Shown here: piece after piece, positions 7,096 to 13,133 of the stretch
How the letters are laid out: each line of letters opens with the position of its first letter
Position numbering within the stretch: position 1 is the stretch's first letter
NCBI GenBank assembly: GCA_944326245.1
Contig: CALVDF010000003.1
Coordinates: 1-64,000, forward strand
Length of the DNA: 64,000 bases
Source of the DNA: an uncultured Bacteroidales bacterium
Lineage (GTDB): Bacteria; Bacteroidota; Bacteroidia; Bacteroidales; UBA932
Reading direction: 5' to 3'
Translations under genes and position numbers: made by a program
Notes under the pieces: generated by a model
The model's input: only the letters and a program-made list of their open reading frames with translations
Told to the model about the DNA's origin: nothing
Databases searched by the model: none

Positions 7096-8277
7096 TTAAA
7101 TTTTTTCTATGGGTTTTAACTGTTTGCGGGTGAATACTATGTGACCGGGGATATCACCGGTGGTGGCCGACCACTTCCGCACTCCGTCCTGCCCGTAGCA
7201 GTGGATGCGGCCGGGGGTGACATGGTCCTTGGCATCGGTCAGGAAGATGTCTCCGTTGGAGGGGTTGACGGCGATGCAGTAGGGGGTGGTGATTTCCTCC
7301 TCCGTGCCGTCGGTGACGAAGTTGCGTGTGACGGTGATGCCTTCACGGGTGTCGAATATGGCGTAGCCGGTACTGTAGTCCAGGGAGACATTGCTCCAGG
7401 AGTGGGATATCACATAGAGCGAGTCGCCGAAGACGGCCATGTCGCTGTTCTGCAGCAGCTGGAGCTCGCGGACCACCTCGTCCGTGGAGGGATCCACCAC
7501 CCAGGTCGAGGACTGCTTCCCGTAATAGTCCCCCCGGGAGGAGATGTAGAGCATCCCGTCCCCGCCGAGTTTGACCTGATGGAGGTTCGGAGCCACTTCT
7601 ATTTCGTTGCATACCTCGAAAGTGGAGAGGTCGATGACCGATACCGTGAGGTCGTAGTCCGGAGCCATGTAGCCCCCGGAATTGGCCACGTAGAGCCGTC
7701 CGTCCACCACCGCCATCTCCTCCGGCTGGTAGCCCACTCCGCAGGTGTCCACCACCTGCATTGTCACCGTGTCTATCTTGGCTACGTAGCCCCTGCGGTA
7801 CTCCGGGTCGAATTCTACTGCCCCGGCGTAGGAGCTGACGTAGGCGTAGCCTCCGTCGAATGCGATGTACCGGCAGTTGGGCAGGGGTATCTCCGCTATG
7901 TGCCGGGCGGTCTCCACGTCCATGACCTCCACGAGGTTGGAGCAGTTGATGACGGCGTAGAGCCTGCCCCCGTAGATGCCGAGGTCATTGCCAACATCCC
8001 CGAGCTCGAGGGCCACTCCCGGATTGCGCTCTGCGAATATGTTGCGGGTGTAGACCCCTGTGGCATAGTCGAAATAGTCGAGAGTGGCCTTGTTGCTGCC
8101 CATATTGCCCTCGTTGAGCAGGAAGAAGCCCTTGACCTCCCCCGCCTCCGAGCCGCCGGTGACCTCATTGCCCGTAGAGGGGGTGATGGGCTCAATCCCC
8201 CGGCAGGAGGTTATGACCGCGCCGGCCAGACATACGGACAGCAGTCCGAAAAGAGTATATGCAGTATTTATTCTCAT
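7096..8277 (-). CDS. btuG: BtuG-like surface beta-propeller lipoprotein
   Basis: 393-residue lipoprotein with lipobox (AVITSC, about residue 25) and a seven-bladed YncE/DUF5074-type propeller. Blade motifs include FFLLNEGNMGSNKATLDYFD at the first blade, then YVSSYAGAVEFDPE, LYVANSGGYM, MLYISSRGDYYG and DIFLTDAKDH. In Bacteroides, BtuG caps BtuB on the outer surface and captures cobalamin with very high affinity before TonB-driven import. The evidence here is the family, the lipobox and the position directly behind btuB: the ATG overlaps the btuB stop by 4 bp (8274-8277), so translation is coupled. Expression is governed by the cobalamin riboswitch at 10583-10800. Confidence 0.85.
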   Translation of the reverse strand: MRINTAYTLFGLLSVCLAGAVITSCRGIEPITPSTGNEVTGGSEAGEVKGFFLLNEGNMGSNKATLDYFDYATGVYTRNIFAERNPGVALELGDVGNDLGIYGGRLYAVINCSNLVEVMDVETARHIAEIPLPNCRYIAFDGGYAYVSSYAGAVEFDPEYRRGYVAKIDTVTMQVVDTCGVGYQPEEMAVVDGRLYVANSGGYMAPDYDLTVSVIDLSTFEVCNEIEVAPNLHQVKLGGDGMLYISSRGDYYGKQSSTWVVDPSTDEVVRELQLLQNSDMAVFGDSLYVISHSWSNVSLDYSTGYAIFDTREGITVTRNFVTDGTEEEITTPYCIAVNPSNGDIFLTDAKDHVTPGRIHCYGQDGVRKWSATTGDIPGHIVFTRKQLKPIEKI

Positions 8278-10463
8278 AGGATGAAATTGACTTTAATCAT
8301 GAAGTTGGTGCCCGGCATCGGGTAGCACTTGACCACCTCGTACTGCTGGTTGAGGATGTTGTTGACCAGGGCCGTGGCCTGCAGCTCCCACCCCTTGAAG
8401 AGGAAGGACTTGGTCAGGGATATGTCGTGGGTGTACCAGGGCTGGGCGTAGTTCTCGGGGATGTTGGCCGAGGATTCGTAGCGCTCGCCGGTGTAGATGA
8501 AGCTGTAGTTGAAGGACCAGCTGCTGTAGGCCGCGCCGAGGGTCACAGAGCAGCTGTGCAGGGGGATGTAGGCCACCTGTCCGCCGTACCATTCGGATGT
8601 CGGGTCGGTCAGGTCGCGGGCCCGCTGGAAGGTGTAGTTGACTCTGGGGGAAACGTCCACCGGTCCGAACCGGAAGTAGCCCTGGGCCGCCGCGTCCACT
8701 CCGAGTATCTCCACGTAGCCGAGGTTCATCATCGTCCAGCGGAACTGGTTGGAGGTGGGCATGGCTATGATCTTGTTGTCTATCTGGTTGAAATACACGT
8801 CGGCCTGTATGTCCAATCCGCGGAACCAGCCGCGGCTGCGTATCAGGTGCCAGGTGGCCCCGAAGTCGTACTGGACGGTCTCCTCCGGCTCCAGCCAGGA
8901 TGCACCGGTGAAGGTGTAGTAGAGGTCGTTGAAGGTGGGCATGCGGTAGTTCTTCTTGTAGAATGCCCTCAGCTCTAAGTCGATATCCCTGAAGGGCTTC
9001 CACGAGGCAATGACGGCGGGGGAGAGCTGGTGCCGGTCGTCCATCTCGGCGTCCGAGGCTCTCAGCACATCATGGATATAGGTGTAGAGGAGGGAGGCGG
9101 AGAGTTTCAGTCCTCCGAATTCGAAGGCGGTGGCGGCAGCTCCGTATCCGGCGTAGCGCAGGGGGTAGACGAAGTCCCGCAGGTCGGCGTCCAGGCTGTT
9201 CCACTGGAAGTCGGTGGCGAGGGACAATGTCCACCACCTGAAGGGTTTGAAACGGTGCGCGGCGGAGAGGTAGGCCTCCTGCTGGCGGTAGCGGTTGTCC
9301 ACGTACATGGCCGTCACGTCGAGACGGGGATCTGCGAGGTAGTGGAGGTAGTCGTAGGCGTACTTGCCGCTCAGCTGTAGGGAGTACCACGGGGTGAAAT
9401 CCTTCTTGAAAGAGCCCTGGGCGAAGAAATTGTCGTCCCATTGCCGGTCCTGGTGTACGAACTGGCCGCGTACCACAGCCCCCGGATAGCCCCGTTCCGA
9501 ATCATAGAAATAGACCTTCGCCCGCCAGTATCCGTCCTCGATGTCCCCGAACAGGGCCACTTCGGCGCGGGTCATCCTCACGTCTCCGTTCTGGCGTATG
9601 CCGGTGGTGTCGTAGCCGTCCTGCTTGGCATAGGTGAACTTGTACCGGCCTGTGGTATAGAGGAATTCGGTGCTGGCCGAGAGGGACAGGCGGTCCGATA
9701 TCTTATGCTCCCAGAGCACCGACGGGTTGACGGTCATGAACGAGCCGCCCTTGAGCCCGAAGTTCCAGTTGTTGCGCTTGCCGTCGGTGAAGCGGGGCTT
9801 CTTGGTCCGGAGGTAGACGGCGTTGGCGGAGGCGTAGTCCTTGGCGGACTGGAGGGTGGCGCTCTTCTGGCCGTTGTAGAGGGAGACCGACTCCATGTTG
9901 TCGAGGGAGAAACGGCCGAGGTCCACTATGCCGTTCTGGGCGTTGCCCAGCTCCACTCCGTCGTAGAATACCCCTACATGCTGGCTGCCGAGACTCCGGA
10001 CATTGATGCTCTTGAGTCCGCCGATGCCGCCGAAGTCCTTGATCTGTACTCCGGAGAAATATCTGATGGCATCGGCAATGGAATGGGTTCCCAATATGCG
10101 TAGCTTCTCGCCTGAAAGCATCTGTACCGGGGCCGCTTCCTGTGAAGTACGGGATGCCACGACCATTACTTCGTCCAGGCTGTAGGTAGTATCCGGTGCG
10201 GGGATGGTGTCAGAAGCGTTGCCGGTCCCATACGAGTTGCCGGTCCAGGATGTGTCGCTGGTATTAGAGCTGGTTTCGGTCAGTGTGTATCCGTTGATGG
10301 CGGTATCTGCATAATTCCAGGACATTGTGCAGTCATGGGCCAGAGTGGTCCCTGCATGGCACAATGCCAGCATTGCGGCGCATAGTGTCAATGCCTGCCG
10401 TGCGATGGATCGTGCCAAGGATCGTGCACTGGATGATGTCCTGTATTTTCCGTTTACTGCCAT
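8274..10463 (-). CDS. btuB: TonB-dependent corrinoid (vitamin B12) receptor BtuB
   Basis: 729-residue outer-membrane receptor with a long signal region (residues about 1-42). The likely TonB box is YSLDEVMVVASR near residue 92. The plug domain follows (LGTHSIADAIRYFSGVQIKDFGG, SINVRSLGSQHVGVFYDGVELG) and then a 22-strand-type barrel ending in a terminal aromatic strand (MIKVNFIL). Without an N-terminal carboxypeptidase-like domain it matches BtuB rather than SusC. The ligand is inferred from the cobalamin riboswitch in its 5' leader and the adjoining BtuG-like gene. It is the first gene of the operon. The segment between signal and TonB box is unusually long and Ser/Thr/Asn-rich. Confidence 0.88.
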   Translation of the reverse strand: MAVNGKYRTSSSARSLARSIARQALTLCAAMLALCHAGTTLAHDCTMSWNYADTAINGYTLTETSSNTSDTSWTGNSYGTGNASDTIPAPDTTYSLDEVMVVASRTSQEAAPVQMLSGEKLRILGTHSIADAIRYFSGVQIKDFGGIGGLKSINVRSLGSQHVGVFYDGVELGNAQNGIVDLGRFSLDNMESVSLYNGQKSATLQSAKDYASANAVYLRTKKPRFTDGKRNNWNFGLKGGSFMTVNPSVLWEHKISDRLSLSASTEFLYTTGRYKFTYAKQDGYDTTGIRQNGDVRMTRAEVALFGDIEDGYWRAKVYFYDSERGYPGAVVRGQFVHQDRQWDDNFFAQGSFKKDFTPWYSLQLSGKYAYDYLHYLADPRLDVTAMYVDNRYRQQEAYLSAAHRFKPFRWWTLSLATDFQWNSLDADLRDFVYPLRYAGYGAAATAFEFGGLKLSASLLYTYIHDVLRASDAEMDDRHQLSPAVIASWKPFRDIDLELRAFYKKNYRMPTFNDLYYTFTGASWLEPEETVQYDFGATWHLIRSRGWFRGLDIQADVYFNQIDNKIIAMPTSNQFRWTMMNLGYVEILGVDAAAQGYFRFGPVDVSPRVNYTFQRARDLTDPTSEWYGGQVAYIPLHSCSVTLGAAYSSWSFNYSFIYTGERYESSANIPENYAQPWYTHDISLTKSFLFKGWELQATALVNNILNQQYEVVKCYPMPGTNFMIKVNFIL

Positions 10464-10508: not shown

Positions 10509-10582
10509 GCAGCTTTGGGCAGATGAGCCTTGAAGACCTTCAGAGTCCGGAGCCTAAACACCCGTAGGCCGCTGATCCGTAT

Positions 10583-10800
10583 TGCAAGGCAGGTCTTCTG
10601 ACTTGTTCCGTTCCGGACGCCTTCCCGAGATGGCGGAGACGGTCAATCTTCCGCGGTCTCAGTGGCAAAAGTGCCGGATAATGAAGGGACTGGCCCTTCG
10701 GAACTTACAGCAGCGGGAACTGTCCGGGAATCTCACCCGGTTCCCTTTTAATCCTGAAGGCCTGTGCCGTAATGGCGCAGCCTTATTAGGAACCATTGCA
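10583..10800 (-). promoter_or_regulatory. cobalamin riboswitch controlling the btu operon
   Basis: On the minus strand the leader carries the AdoCbl-class hallmarks in order: GGGAACCGGGTGAGATTCCC, CCGCTGCTGTAAG, a GCCACTG element and the 3' B12 box GTCAGAAGACCTGCC (plus strand 10588-10602). The core sits directly after a promoter at 10805-10836 and about 120 nt before the btuB ATG. The expected effect is reduced btu operon expression when cobalamin is bound. Whether it acts on transcription or on translation cannot be told from sequence alone. Confidence 0.93.
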
Positions 10801-10804
10801 GCCG

Positions 10805-10836
10805 CAAATGTAGAGATAAATTTCAAATTTCCCAAA
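10805..10836 (-). promoter_or_regulatory. promoter of the btu operon
   Basis: On the minus strand, TTTG (10836-10833), 20 nt, then TACATTTG (10812-10805): an exact match to the Bacteroidota -33/-7 promoter. Transcription would begin at about 10800, exactly at the 5' side of the cobalamin riboswitch. Confidence 0.8.
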
Positions 10837-10885: not shown

Positions 10886-11172
10886 CAACCTAACATGCGG
10901 ATATTTTGGTAATATATTGTATATCAGCTAATATGTTTTTTTGAGCAATGTTAGGATGGGGGCGTTCCGGCCGTTTTGAGGCGGTTCGGGTGCATCCTAA
11001 CATTGCGTGTGTTTTTCAAGTTGCTGGTTCTTAGTTGTTTGGGCGAAAGGGGCGATGTTAGGATGGGGGCGTTCTGGCCGTTTGGAGGCGGTTAGGGGGC
11101 ATCCTAACATTGTGCGGATTTTACAAGTTGCTGGTTCTTAGTTGCTTAGTCGGAGGTGCCGATGTTAGGATG
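10886..11172. repeat. REP-like arm array, RAYT downstream side (three units)
   Basis: Arms CATCCTAACAT (R) and its complement ATGTTAGGATG (L) alternate. R lies at 10886 (one mismatch), 10993 and 11100; L lies at 10948, 11055 and 11162. Every R-to-L interval is exactly 51 nt (73-bp units) and both L-to-R intervals are 34 nt, giving a 107-bp period. Units 2 and 3 are also similar inside (caagttgctggttcttagtt), while unit 1 keeps only the arms and the length. The L-to-R interiors are G-rich. This is the pattern expected of REP/BIME elements served by the neighbouring RAYT. Apart from this array, 10837-11455 contains no gene. Confidence 0.8.
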
Positions 11173-11455
11173 GTGTATGTTGCGGGTTGCTATCGCCTGT
11201 TTCGCCGGTTGCAGTTGCCCACCGTGCTGAGTTGTCGTCAGTTGGCTGGCGTCCGTTGCCGGTTGACTACTATCAGCCGTCCGTTGCCGGCCGTCTACTG
11301 TCGGTCGCTCGTTGTCGGTTGTCTGCTGTCCGCTGCCGCGTGCTGTGGTCCGCAGACCCGTTTTCTGCTGCAGGCCGTCTGCTGTTGGCTGTCGGCTATC
11401 GGTTGCTGGTGCCTGTTACCTGCTGTACGTTGCCAGTGCGGGGTGCCCGTTGCTG
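11173..11455. repeat. decayed low-complexity repeat tract
   Basis: About 280 bp made of short degenerate words on the plus strand (gttgccggttg, tgtcggttg, gtctgctgtc, ggttgcta) with no credible gene. It directly follows the last L arm and runs to the end of the RAYT gene. It resembles an old short tandem repeat that has diverged. Confidence 0.5.
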
Positions 11456-12529
11456 TCAAGAGCCGCCGAGACATCTCATGGCCTGTTCCGTGCTTATGTG
11501 GAAACGGTCTTTAAGCGTTTGTGCGATCTGTTTTTTCTGCTCGTTTCCTATATGTATATATGAAGGTATTGTCAATCGCGGCAACAGTTCCCTGTCTATG
11601 TACCGGCATAGTTCCAGGTCGGTCATGTGTATTCTGAAAGAACCGTTCTCATAGGCCCGCATTTCCTTTTGGAGATGTGAACAAGTGGGTTCCGCGGTTT
11701 CAAGGGAGACTATCCCGTCCGTGATTTTGGCATTTGCCTGTTCCCGCTCCCAGTCTTCAGTGTTCCATCTGTTCATGGAGTGGATGAAGTTTCTGGATGT
11801 CCTGAAGAGGTATTCGACCATACCTGCATTGACCAAGTACTCCAGTTCTATTCTGCCGGTACTGTCAGTCGGCAGCCTCAGTGCTTTCCTGCCGTCACGG
11901 CTGATGCAGTATTCTTCCGGCTGACCGTCCATTGTCTGCCTCCCGGACATCGCCCCTTTACAGGCGGTTGAGTGTCTGCCGGACATTGATTCCGTGCAGC
12001 GCCTGTTTGCTCCATCATTGCCTCCCTTATTGTCTCGATGGTCCATGTGTTGGCAATGGCCCATGTGGGTTTCCCTTGTGCCCTTTGTGCCGGATGGGGA
12101 CAGTGCATCGGGGAAGTATGCGCTGATGGAAGAAAACGGGTATTGGAAAGGGGTTTCGCAGATGCCGTGATGCATGGGGTTGCGCAGGATGTAACTGATC
12201 ATGACCCTTTGTCTCAGATACCCGCGGACTACCTGGCAGTAGCTGTATGTCATCAGCGGTCCGGTCCTGCCGTATTTTCTGTTGAAATATCTCGTGTATC
12301 CTGACTTTATACGGAGAATGAGTCCGGCCGTGTCAGTGCATGAGACTGCAATGTGCGCATGGTTGGACATTACCGCATATGCAAGGACTGAAACATTGCT
12401 CTTCCGTGCAGATGCACCGATCTGGTTCTCGAGAAAAATGTAGTTATGCCGGTCCCGGCAGATCACTTCCGTCTTTGAAGAAAGTACAATATGAAATAAA
12501 CTTTCGCCCGCCTTTTCCATACCCTTCAT
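11456..12529 (-). CDS. REP-associated tyrosine transposase (RAYT), Y1 HUH family
   Basis: 357-residue protein. Residues about 10-160 form a Y1_Tnp (IS200-like) domain: the HUH metal motif is in AYAVMSNHAHIAV and the candidate catalytic Tyr is in MISYILRNPMHHG, the RAYT counterpart of YIHLNPVRAG. RAYTs nick and join single-stranded DNA at REP hairpins and are thought to spread them. The protein is longer than simple RAYTs. A Lys/Arg/Ser-rich linker (about 165-215) leads to a C-terminal helical region (about 215-357) with an apparent HTH near the end (QKKQIAQTLKDRFHISTEQAM). It is flanked on both sides by 11-bp arms (L at 11162, R at 12659) belonging to the local arrays. ATG 12520 is an alternative start. 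Confidence 0.85.
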   Translation of the reverse strand: MKGMEKAGESLFHIVLSSKTEVICRDRHNYIFLENQIGASARKSNVSVLAYAVMSNHAHIAVSCTDTAGLILRIKSGYTRYFNRKYGRTGPLMTYSYCQVVRGYLRQRVMISYILRNPMHHGICETPFQYPFSSISAYFPDALSPSGTKGTRETHMGHCQHMDHRDNKGGNDGANRRCTESMSGRHSTACKGAMSGRQTMDGQPEEYCISRDGRKALRLPTDSTGRIELEYLVNAGMVEYLFRTSRNFIHSMNRWNTEDWEREQANAKITDGIVSLETAEPTCSHLQKEMRAYENGSFRIHMTDLELCRYIDRELLPRLTIPSYIHIGNEQKKQIAQTLKDRFHISTEQAMRCLGGS

Positions 12530-12537
12530 GTTTATTC

Positions 12538-12575
12538 GTTACTGCAAAGTTATGTGTTGTTACTGCAAAGTTGTG
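12538..12575. repeat. 21-bp-period direct repeat upstream of the RAYT
   Basis: GTTACTGCAAAGTTATG (12538-12554) recurs as GTTACTGCAAAGTTGTG (12559-12575), 16 of 17 identical. It lies 9 bp before the RAYT start codon, so it may be its promoter or operator region. On the RAYT strand the second unit contains CAACTTTGCAGTAAC. Confidence 0.55.
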
Positions 12576-12658
12576 AAGATTCCGGCAATAAAACAATAGG
12601 GAGGCGGGACCGTGGAGGGTAATCGGGACGGATTTCAGTGATTTTCAGTGATGCTTGG

Positions 12659-12851
12659 CATCCTAACATTTTGATGATTTTGGTAAAATGTATGATTATG
12701 AGCGTATTAGACGGTGGTTCAAAGGCCCGGATCCATGTTAGGATTGGCCAAAACAGGCAAAAAACAGCTGTTTCGCATCATCCTAACATGAATCCGAAAA
12801 TGTAAATGTCGGTTTTTCAGATATTTGCGCGAAGAGTTCAATGTTAGGATG
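12659..12851. repeat. REP-like arm array, RAYT upstream side (two units)
   Basis: R arms CATCCTAACAT at 12659 and 12779; L arms at 12735 (ATGTTAGGATT, one mismatch) and 12841 (exact). The second R-to-L interval is again exactly 51 nt. The first is 65 nt. The L-to-R interval is 33 nt. Interiors differ from those on the other side of the RAYT, so arms and spacing are conserved while the inside is not. Together with 12852-13133 this is a gene-free stretch. Confidence 0.78.
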
Positions 12852-12861
12852 CTGGTTTTGT

Positions 12862-12978
12862 CCAGGTTCGCCCAGGTTCGCCCAGGTTCGCCCAGGTTCG
12901 CCCAGGTTCGCCCGGTTCGTTCGGTTCGTCTAGGTTCGCCCAGGTTCGTTCGGTTCGTCCAAGTTCGTCCGGTTTGTC
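12862..12978. repeat. 10-bp minisatellite CCAGGTTCGC
   Basis: Five perfect tandem copies of CCAGGTTCGC occupy 12862-12911. Diverged copies (cggttcgttc, taggttcgcc, aagttcgtcc) continue to about 12978. The tract starts 10 bp after the last L arm. The region beyond (12979-13133) is also low complexity, with four ATGCGTG-like words. No gene is supported here. Confidence 0.8.
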
Positions 12979-13133
12979 CAGGGCCTGTCAGAGTTCAGCC
13001 GCTTTTCCTTAGTATGTGTACATGTGAGTGAGTGTGTCCATGGATGCGTGCCCCGAGATGCGTGCCTTGGATGCGTGTGGGACTTGTCGGGGTTGAGGGC
13101 GCTGAGGGTGCCGAGGGTGTGTGCGGATGCGTA

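Follow-up and report, generated by a model that had tools for sequence, protein, structure and literature searches.

A RAYT-like gene between arrays of long four-arm repeats in an uncultured Bacteroidales genome: a probable REPtron-like locus without the GTAG foot

The window analysed in this study (64,000 nucleotides, positions 1 to 64,000 of contig CALVDF010000003.1 from an uncultured Bacteroidales bacterium) contains a gene for a Y1/HUH transposase-like protein that is flanked on both sides by alternating copies of an 11-nt arm (R) and its complement (L) at nearly constant distances. The question raised by this arrangement is what relation the gene bears to the arms. The reading favoured here, with a probability of roughly 0.7, is a REPtron-like locus in which a single-copy RAYT lies beside its own non-autonomous, REPIN-like elements (the CATCCTAACAT elements), which lack a GTAG foot.

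The gene, its product and the flanking arms

Ten arms were found in the window (at 10886, 10948, 10993, 11055, 11100, 11162, 12659, 12735, 12779 and 12841), eight of them exact and two with one mismatch (CAACCTAACAT at 10886 and ATGTTAGGATT at 12735). Shuffled versions of the window gave 1.0 ± 1.0 matches and never reached 10, and the arm positions, order and intervals of the original prediction were all recovered. The gaps from R to L are, in order, 51, 51, 51, 65 and 51 nt, and those from L to R are 34, 34 and 33 nt. A 107-nt direct repeat lies within the 3'-side array, and the four-arm element on the 5' side has a first half that is 14 nt longer (Table 1). Degenerate short tandem repeats such as GGTTCGCCCA border the elements on the outside, and similar low-complexity repeats surround the copy of the element near groEL that is described below (window 12863-12980 and 11180-11460; locus L045 3400-3530 and 3720-3830). 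An Rfam search of the locus placed the repeats in no family; its sole match was a nearby cobalamin riboswitch (RF00174, 91 bits; window 10571-10812, minus strand) upstream of a gene for a 729-residue TonB-receptor-like protein (8274-10463).

Table 1. Positions of the RAYT-like gene, arrays, units and linkers in the window
Feature	Coordinates	Strand	Basis
RAYT-like Y1/HUH protein, 357 aa	11456..12529	-	Pfam, NCBIfam, motifs aligned over 15 homologues
3'-side array of the gene, three R-51-L units, 34-nt linkers	10886..11172	.	Arm search and array chaining
R-51-L unit, R arm 10886-10896 (1 mismatch), L arm 10948-10958	10886..10958	.	Arms and DNA fold
L-34-R linker, hairpin-capable	10948..11003	.	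DNA fold, z -5.0
R-51-L unit, both arms exact	10993..11065	.	Arms and DNA fold
L-34-R linker, hairpin-capable	11055..11110	.	DNA fold, z -4.6
R-51-L unit, both arms exact	11100..11172	.	Arms and DNA fold
5'-side element of the gene, R-65-L-33-R-51-L, 193 nt	12659..12851	.	Arm search and element alignment
R-65-L unit, L arm 12735-12745 (1 mismatch)	12659..12745	.	Arm search
L-33-R linker, hairpin-capable	12735..12789	.	DNA fold, z -3.7
R-51-L unit, both arms exact	12779..12851	.	Arms and DNA fold

The protein matches the Pfam family Y1_Tnp at 26.3 bits (cutoff 23) and the NCBIfam model REP_Tyr_transpos at 37.4 bits, which is under the equivalog cutoff of 80; the latter model is matched by all 15 homologues at E ≤ 0.01. 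The catalytic core comprises residues 12-133, and the HUH and tyrosine motifs, MSNHAH and YILRNP, are intact and fall in columns that are conserved among the 15 homologues. The profile of these homologues aligns along Escherichia coli TnpAREP (PDB 4ER8) over both motifs with a weak E-value of 0.13. A C-terminal domain (about residues 220-355) is also conserved in the homologues and corresponds to no Pfam family. The AlphaFold model has a mean pLDDT of 43 and is fairly confident in the last helices only. Judged by sequence, classification of the protein as a RAYT with a non-classical REP-like repeat is supported.

The genome (G000) contains one full copy of this gene, and the paralogues are 41% identical or less. 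Seven further RAYT-like genes (on contigs C4, C8, C11, C12, C38 and, two of them, C13) are 29-41% identical to it, and four of the seven encode the same C-terminal domain, a high variety of RAYTs for a 2.5-Mb genome. Near relatives of the long protein are almost limited to the genus, since a profile search at E ≤ 1e-20 in an order-wide sample of 294 genomes matched one other genome; the nearest named relatives are in Candidatus Coprenecus, placed in Rikenellaceae. Plasmid homologues amount to a single weak match (31%).

Dispersed elements and their match to RAYT clades

In the 2.49-Mb draft assembly (50 contigs) there are 65 exact copies of the arm as compared with one of the reversed control, counts from exact-pattern searches that are lower bounds, with several arrays also running into contig ends. 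Chaining of the arms gave 24 arrays. Of the 62 R-to-L distances in them, 60 belong to the 73-nt or the 51-nt class: 47 are 73 nt, to which comes one unit broken up by a spurious arm call, and 12 are 51 nt; the other two are 65 and 74 nt. The L-to-R distance is 33 nt in 33 cases, 34 nt in three, 44 nt in two and 32 nt in one, plus a spurious 20. Each of the four loci of the 51-nt class outside the window has the form R-51-L-33-R-51-L, 179 nt in total. The 73-nt class forms direct tandem arrays with a period of 128 nt and one orientation per array, and its interior is partly symmetric in register 0. An arm-only pattern had been predicted; the arms and their fixed intervals are conserved as proposed, but so is the centre of the R-L interval, where a TGATNATCA-like motif is present in 23 of 39 halves as compared with 4% in shuffled sequences. 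The two halves of the 179-nt class agree at about 21 of 51 positions in inverted and direct alignment alike (shuffle null 13.9 ± 3.1), and their relative orientation cannot be told because each half is itself partly palindromic. By crude ORF calling, the sampled elements lie mostly between genes.

The 44-nt linkers (33+11, in arrays on contigs C4 and C37) and the 73-nt interiors (51+22) point to length steps near whole helical turns, to which the 65-nt interior of the window unit 12659-12745 (51+14) is an exception. The arrays of the 73-nt class at L019, L022, L032, L035, L038 and L039 (contigs C3, C4, C9, C23, C25 and C37) lie in composite islands with common flanks, where they adjoin CGCAGGTGAACC hairpin arrays and, in many cases, hairpins of a third family (GCCACAACGCCCAC). 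A number of these arrays stop at contig ends. The CGCAGGTGAACC repeat is the cognate of a paralogous RAYT that it adjoins on contig C12; this genome has 75 copies of it, and other genomes have few, except for 14 in G063.

A search of the genome and its relatives had been set beforehand as the test of the partnership, and it gave many dispersed copies of the arm only where this RAYT occurs: 65 in this genome and none in 18 congeners (1 of 19 genomes), whose closest RAYTs are 42-56% identical to that of the window. Among 200 genomes of the family, the R..L pairs are confined to this one. Different RAYT clades coexist in the genus, frequently within a single genome, and the adjacent repeats that were recognised are clade-specific. 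When arm types were placed as labels on a tree of 29 RAYTs, they required seven changes, the fewest possible, a value as low as which was found in none of 200 shuffles, with nine rows that have no recognised arm taking one common label and near-copies inflating the test. The RAYTs with long elements, including that of the window, form one clade (support 100/99), and arm types follow the RAYT tree without conflict. Pairs of AGTCCAGCA arms occur in four genomes and always span 69 nt. Two genomes (G132 and G076) have many CACTATACATTTT elements, yet no RAYT of the corresponding clade was found in either; in this respect the coupling between element and RAYT in sister families is loose and not absolute. 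Concordance of arms and RAYTs within one genus can also come from shared descent without mobilisation.

Four RAYTs with 42% identity over the best segment, from Coprenecus and other Bacteroidales bins, have inverted-repeat units on both flanks. When the 177-nt units beside related RAYTs are aligned to the 179-nt elements of this genome, the arms fall in register, although their sequences differ. The 177-nt length is exact in 19 of 20 copies from seven congeneric genomes, with interior identity averaging 57% and falling to 44%, and the inner left arm is at one fixed position in all; because indels are nearly absent at such divergence, the length appears to be under constraint. In this class the halves match at 19.6 of 45 positions when inverted and 16.7 when direct (null 12.8), which weakly supports an inverted orientation of the two modules. 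Clear inverted duplication of the halves was rejected, the matches concerned being between units of different loci in opposite orientation. An asymmetric target site, with conservation of one flank only, was considered on account of the CTGTCGG that precedes three of four elements in this genome. It was likewise discarded, as the TTGY/RCAA-like ends of 20 sister elements are roughly symmetric.

An additional ~0.5 kb, with one 179-nt element in it, separates two convergent genes downstream of groEL in this genome; in G142 and G160, the 3' ends of groEL and ORF392 nearly abut. The inserted segment is wider than the element and does not capture exact transposition ends, so that the site shows a species-specific difference, not a precise transposition product. 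At a second site (contig C7), the neighbouring gene was not found beside the site in relatives. Co-distribution and the one species-specific insertion are indirect pointers to mobilisation by the RAYT.

Symmetry, folding and the readings weighed

Known REP recognition relies on a GTAG foot and a short hairpin. A GT[AG]G foot was found in none of 12 units of the 51-nt class, none of 33 linkers and 3 of 19 177-nt elements, in the last case without a shared column, and no conserved cut site was found among the elements examined. The modules (73 nt, or 95 nt in the 73-nt class) and the linker hairpins (55-56 nt) exceed the 20-40 nt hairpin of a canonical REP. The proposal of a non-classical REP class is thus upheld by both the foot and the module size.

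The observations on the accompanying proposal of a folded single-stranded substrate point both ways. As DNA, most single units have better folds than their shuffles, the L-33-R linker hairpins being the clearest case (z -3.4 to -5.0), and the arms are able to pair. The dyad register is genuine: outside the outer arms, 46% of positions are complementary in the dyad register as compared with about 20-32% in shifted registers, and over 16 sister elements 64% of cells pair across the dyad as compared with 37-41% when slid. Against the proposal, the same 16 elements have no excess of compensatory changes at the dyad; there are fewer than in shuffles, and all measures of covariation are below those of shuffles, so that conservation of a long base-paired hairpin as such is not supported. 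Because compensatory changes are fewer than in shuffles, the dyad symmetry is seen to be kept as sequence, a property compatible both with symmetric protein sites and with a hairpin.

This property bears on how the arms might be read. One possibility, which we regard as unlikely, is that the enzyme with its C-terminal domain would read them in duplex, helically phased DNA, within a synaptic four-arm complex, and not in a folded single-stranded hairpin. Pointers in that direction are the spacings of 51 and 73 nt (difference 22) and of 33 and 44 nt (difference 11), the scarcity of indels despite strong divergence and a dyad that is conserved without a compensatory excess. Less probable again is that a host DNA-binding protein uses the arms as operator-like or architectural sites, the elements having spread by passive recombination and the RAYT being flanked by them incidentally. 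The BIMEs of E. coli bind gyrase or IHF, and sites of this kind would agree with symmetry residing in conserved sequence and not in compensatory pairs, with R-to-L classes 22 nt apart and linker classes 11 nt apart, both close to helical turns, and with the mostly intergenic location of the sampled elements, as judged by crude ORF calling; however, the RAYTs of the long-element clade have clade-specific adjacent arms that track the RAYT tree, and a change of sites from one RAYT clade to the next is not what one would expect of a host protein.

There is little to recommend a third reading, that the arrays of the 73-nt class are separate satellite-like repeats in composite islands, expanded by slippage, that merely share arms with the RAYT-linked elements: their units have one orientation, a 128-nt period and common flanks beside other hairpin families, and none was seen beside the RAYT, but the arms and the 33-nt linker length are identical to those of the RAYT-linked elements and the 73-nt interior is partly symmetric in register 0. 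Least probable of all is a mobile unit consisting of the RAYT and its flanking elements (a composite IS or a TIR-bounded unit), which would draw on the framing of the gene by L and R arms, on relatives with complete units on both flanks and on the TIR-associated RAYTs described previously (PMC3733652), but is opposed by the single gene copy against 65 arm copies and the absence of a second locus with the gene and its arrays in this genome. The framing, taken in the original prediction to mean that the gene occupies one L-R slot, carries no particular significance: arrays almost always open with R and close with L, and the RAYTs of relatives lie between two complete 177-nt elements; the window gene is simply a gene between two complete arrays.

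In the favoured REPtron-like reading, the element of 177-179 nt consists of two related, partly palindromic modules of ~70 nt around a hairpin-capable linker of 33-37 nt, symmetric as a whole. Each module has an arm at either end and a TGATNATCA-like centre, with ~20 nt between the centre and each arm. The RAYT would recognise the arms, its Y1 tyrosine would nick adjacent to them while the DNA is exposed (e.g. on the lagging strand), and the enzyme would move or copy the element in trans into intergenic sites. Re-insertion next to copies already present, or unequal recombination, may have given rise to the tandem arrays (periods of 107 and 128 nt). The sequences directly show the intact catalytic motifs, the dispersal, the agreement of arms with RAYTs across clades, the constant geometry and a single species-specific insertion, whereas the binding, nicking and mobilisation steps and the form of DNA read by the enzyme are deduced.

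Relation to known RAYT systems

Atypical repeats beside Bacteroidetes RAYTs are already part of a 2018 survey, in which the passages on TnpAY1 subclass 2.6 (Bertels group 5; Quentin et al. 2018, PMC6006769) describe Bacteroidetes RAYTs with atypical, weaker flanking structures that lack GT[AG]G and have copies elsewhere in the genome. The flanks of the window RAYT are similarly atypical, without GTAG and with copies elsewhere in the genome. According to those passages, proteins of the subclass have a median length of 179 residues and the motifs NH[LIV]H and YIH[QN]NP, in contrast to the 357 residues, NHAH and YILRNP of the window protein, which is not filed in subclass 2.6 because its motifs and length differ. 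Nor do the passages describe a fixed four-arm geometry of 177-179 nt or a C-terminal domain of this kind.

The elements resemble REPINs, which are doublets of inverted REPs (Bertels and Rainey 2011, as summarised in PMC6006769), in having two modules and a spacer, symmetry as a whole, a dispersed distribution and a cognate RAYT in the genome. They differ from REPINs, as that summary presents them, in that the modules are ~70 nt and not short REPs, the GTAG foot is absent and the interior is fixed at 51 or 73 nt with a conserved centre. The locus shares a Y1/HUH core, a single-copy gene and flanking repeats with the E. coli REPtron, but E. coli TnpAREP recognises GTAG and a short hairpin in single strands (PMC8266576); here, the foot is absent and the C-terminal domain is extra. 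The TIRYT/TIRtron systems (Di Nocera et al. 2013, PMC3733652) are alike in that long inverted repeats take the place of REPs on the flanks of a RAYT and that some genomes have families of repeats at other sites. In the TIRtron the TIRs flank the gene itself, whereas here both flanks are complete elements, each having four arms. The IS200/IS605 elements are autonomous and have several near-identical transposase copies, unlike the single-copy gene of the window. The RAYT and its elements would act like a REPIN with its RAYT; the elements depart from the canonical REP in foot and size, and the locus seems to be an atypical form of the known partnership of RAYTs with small passenger repeats.

One clade within the genus has long, length-fixed four-arm elements without the GTAG foot. 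Matched pairs of enzyme and substrate, diverged from a common ancestor, form a natural set for questions of RAYT recognition, among them whether the function of the GTAG guide has passed to the extra C-terminal domain. Duplex recognition of the arms, if true, would mean that a RAYT can find its substrate by another logic.
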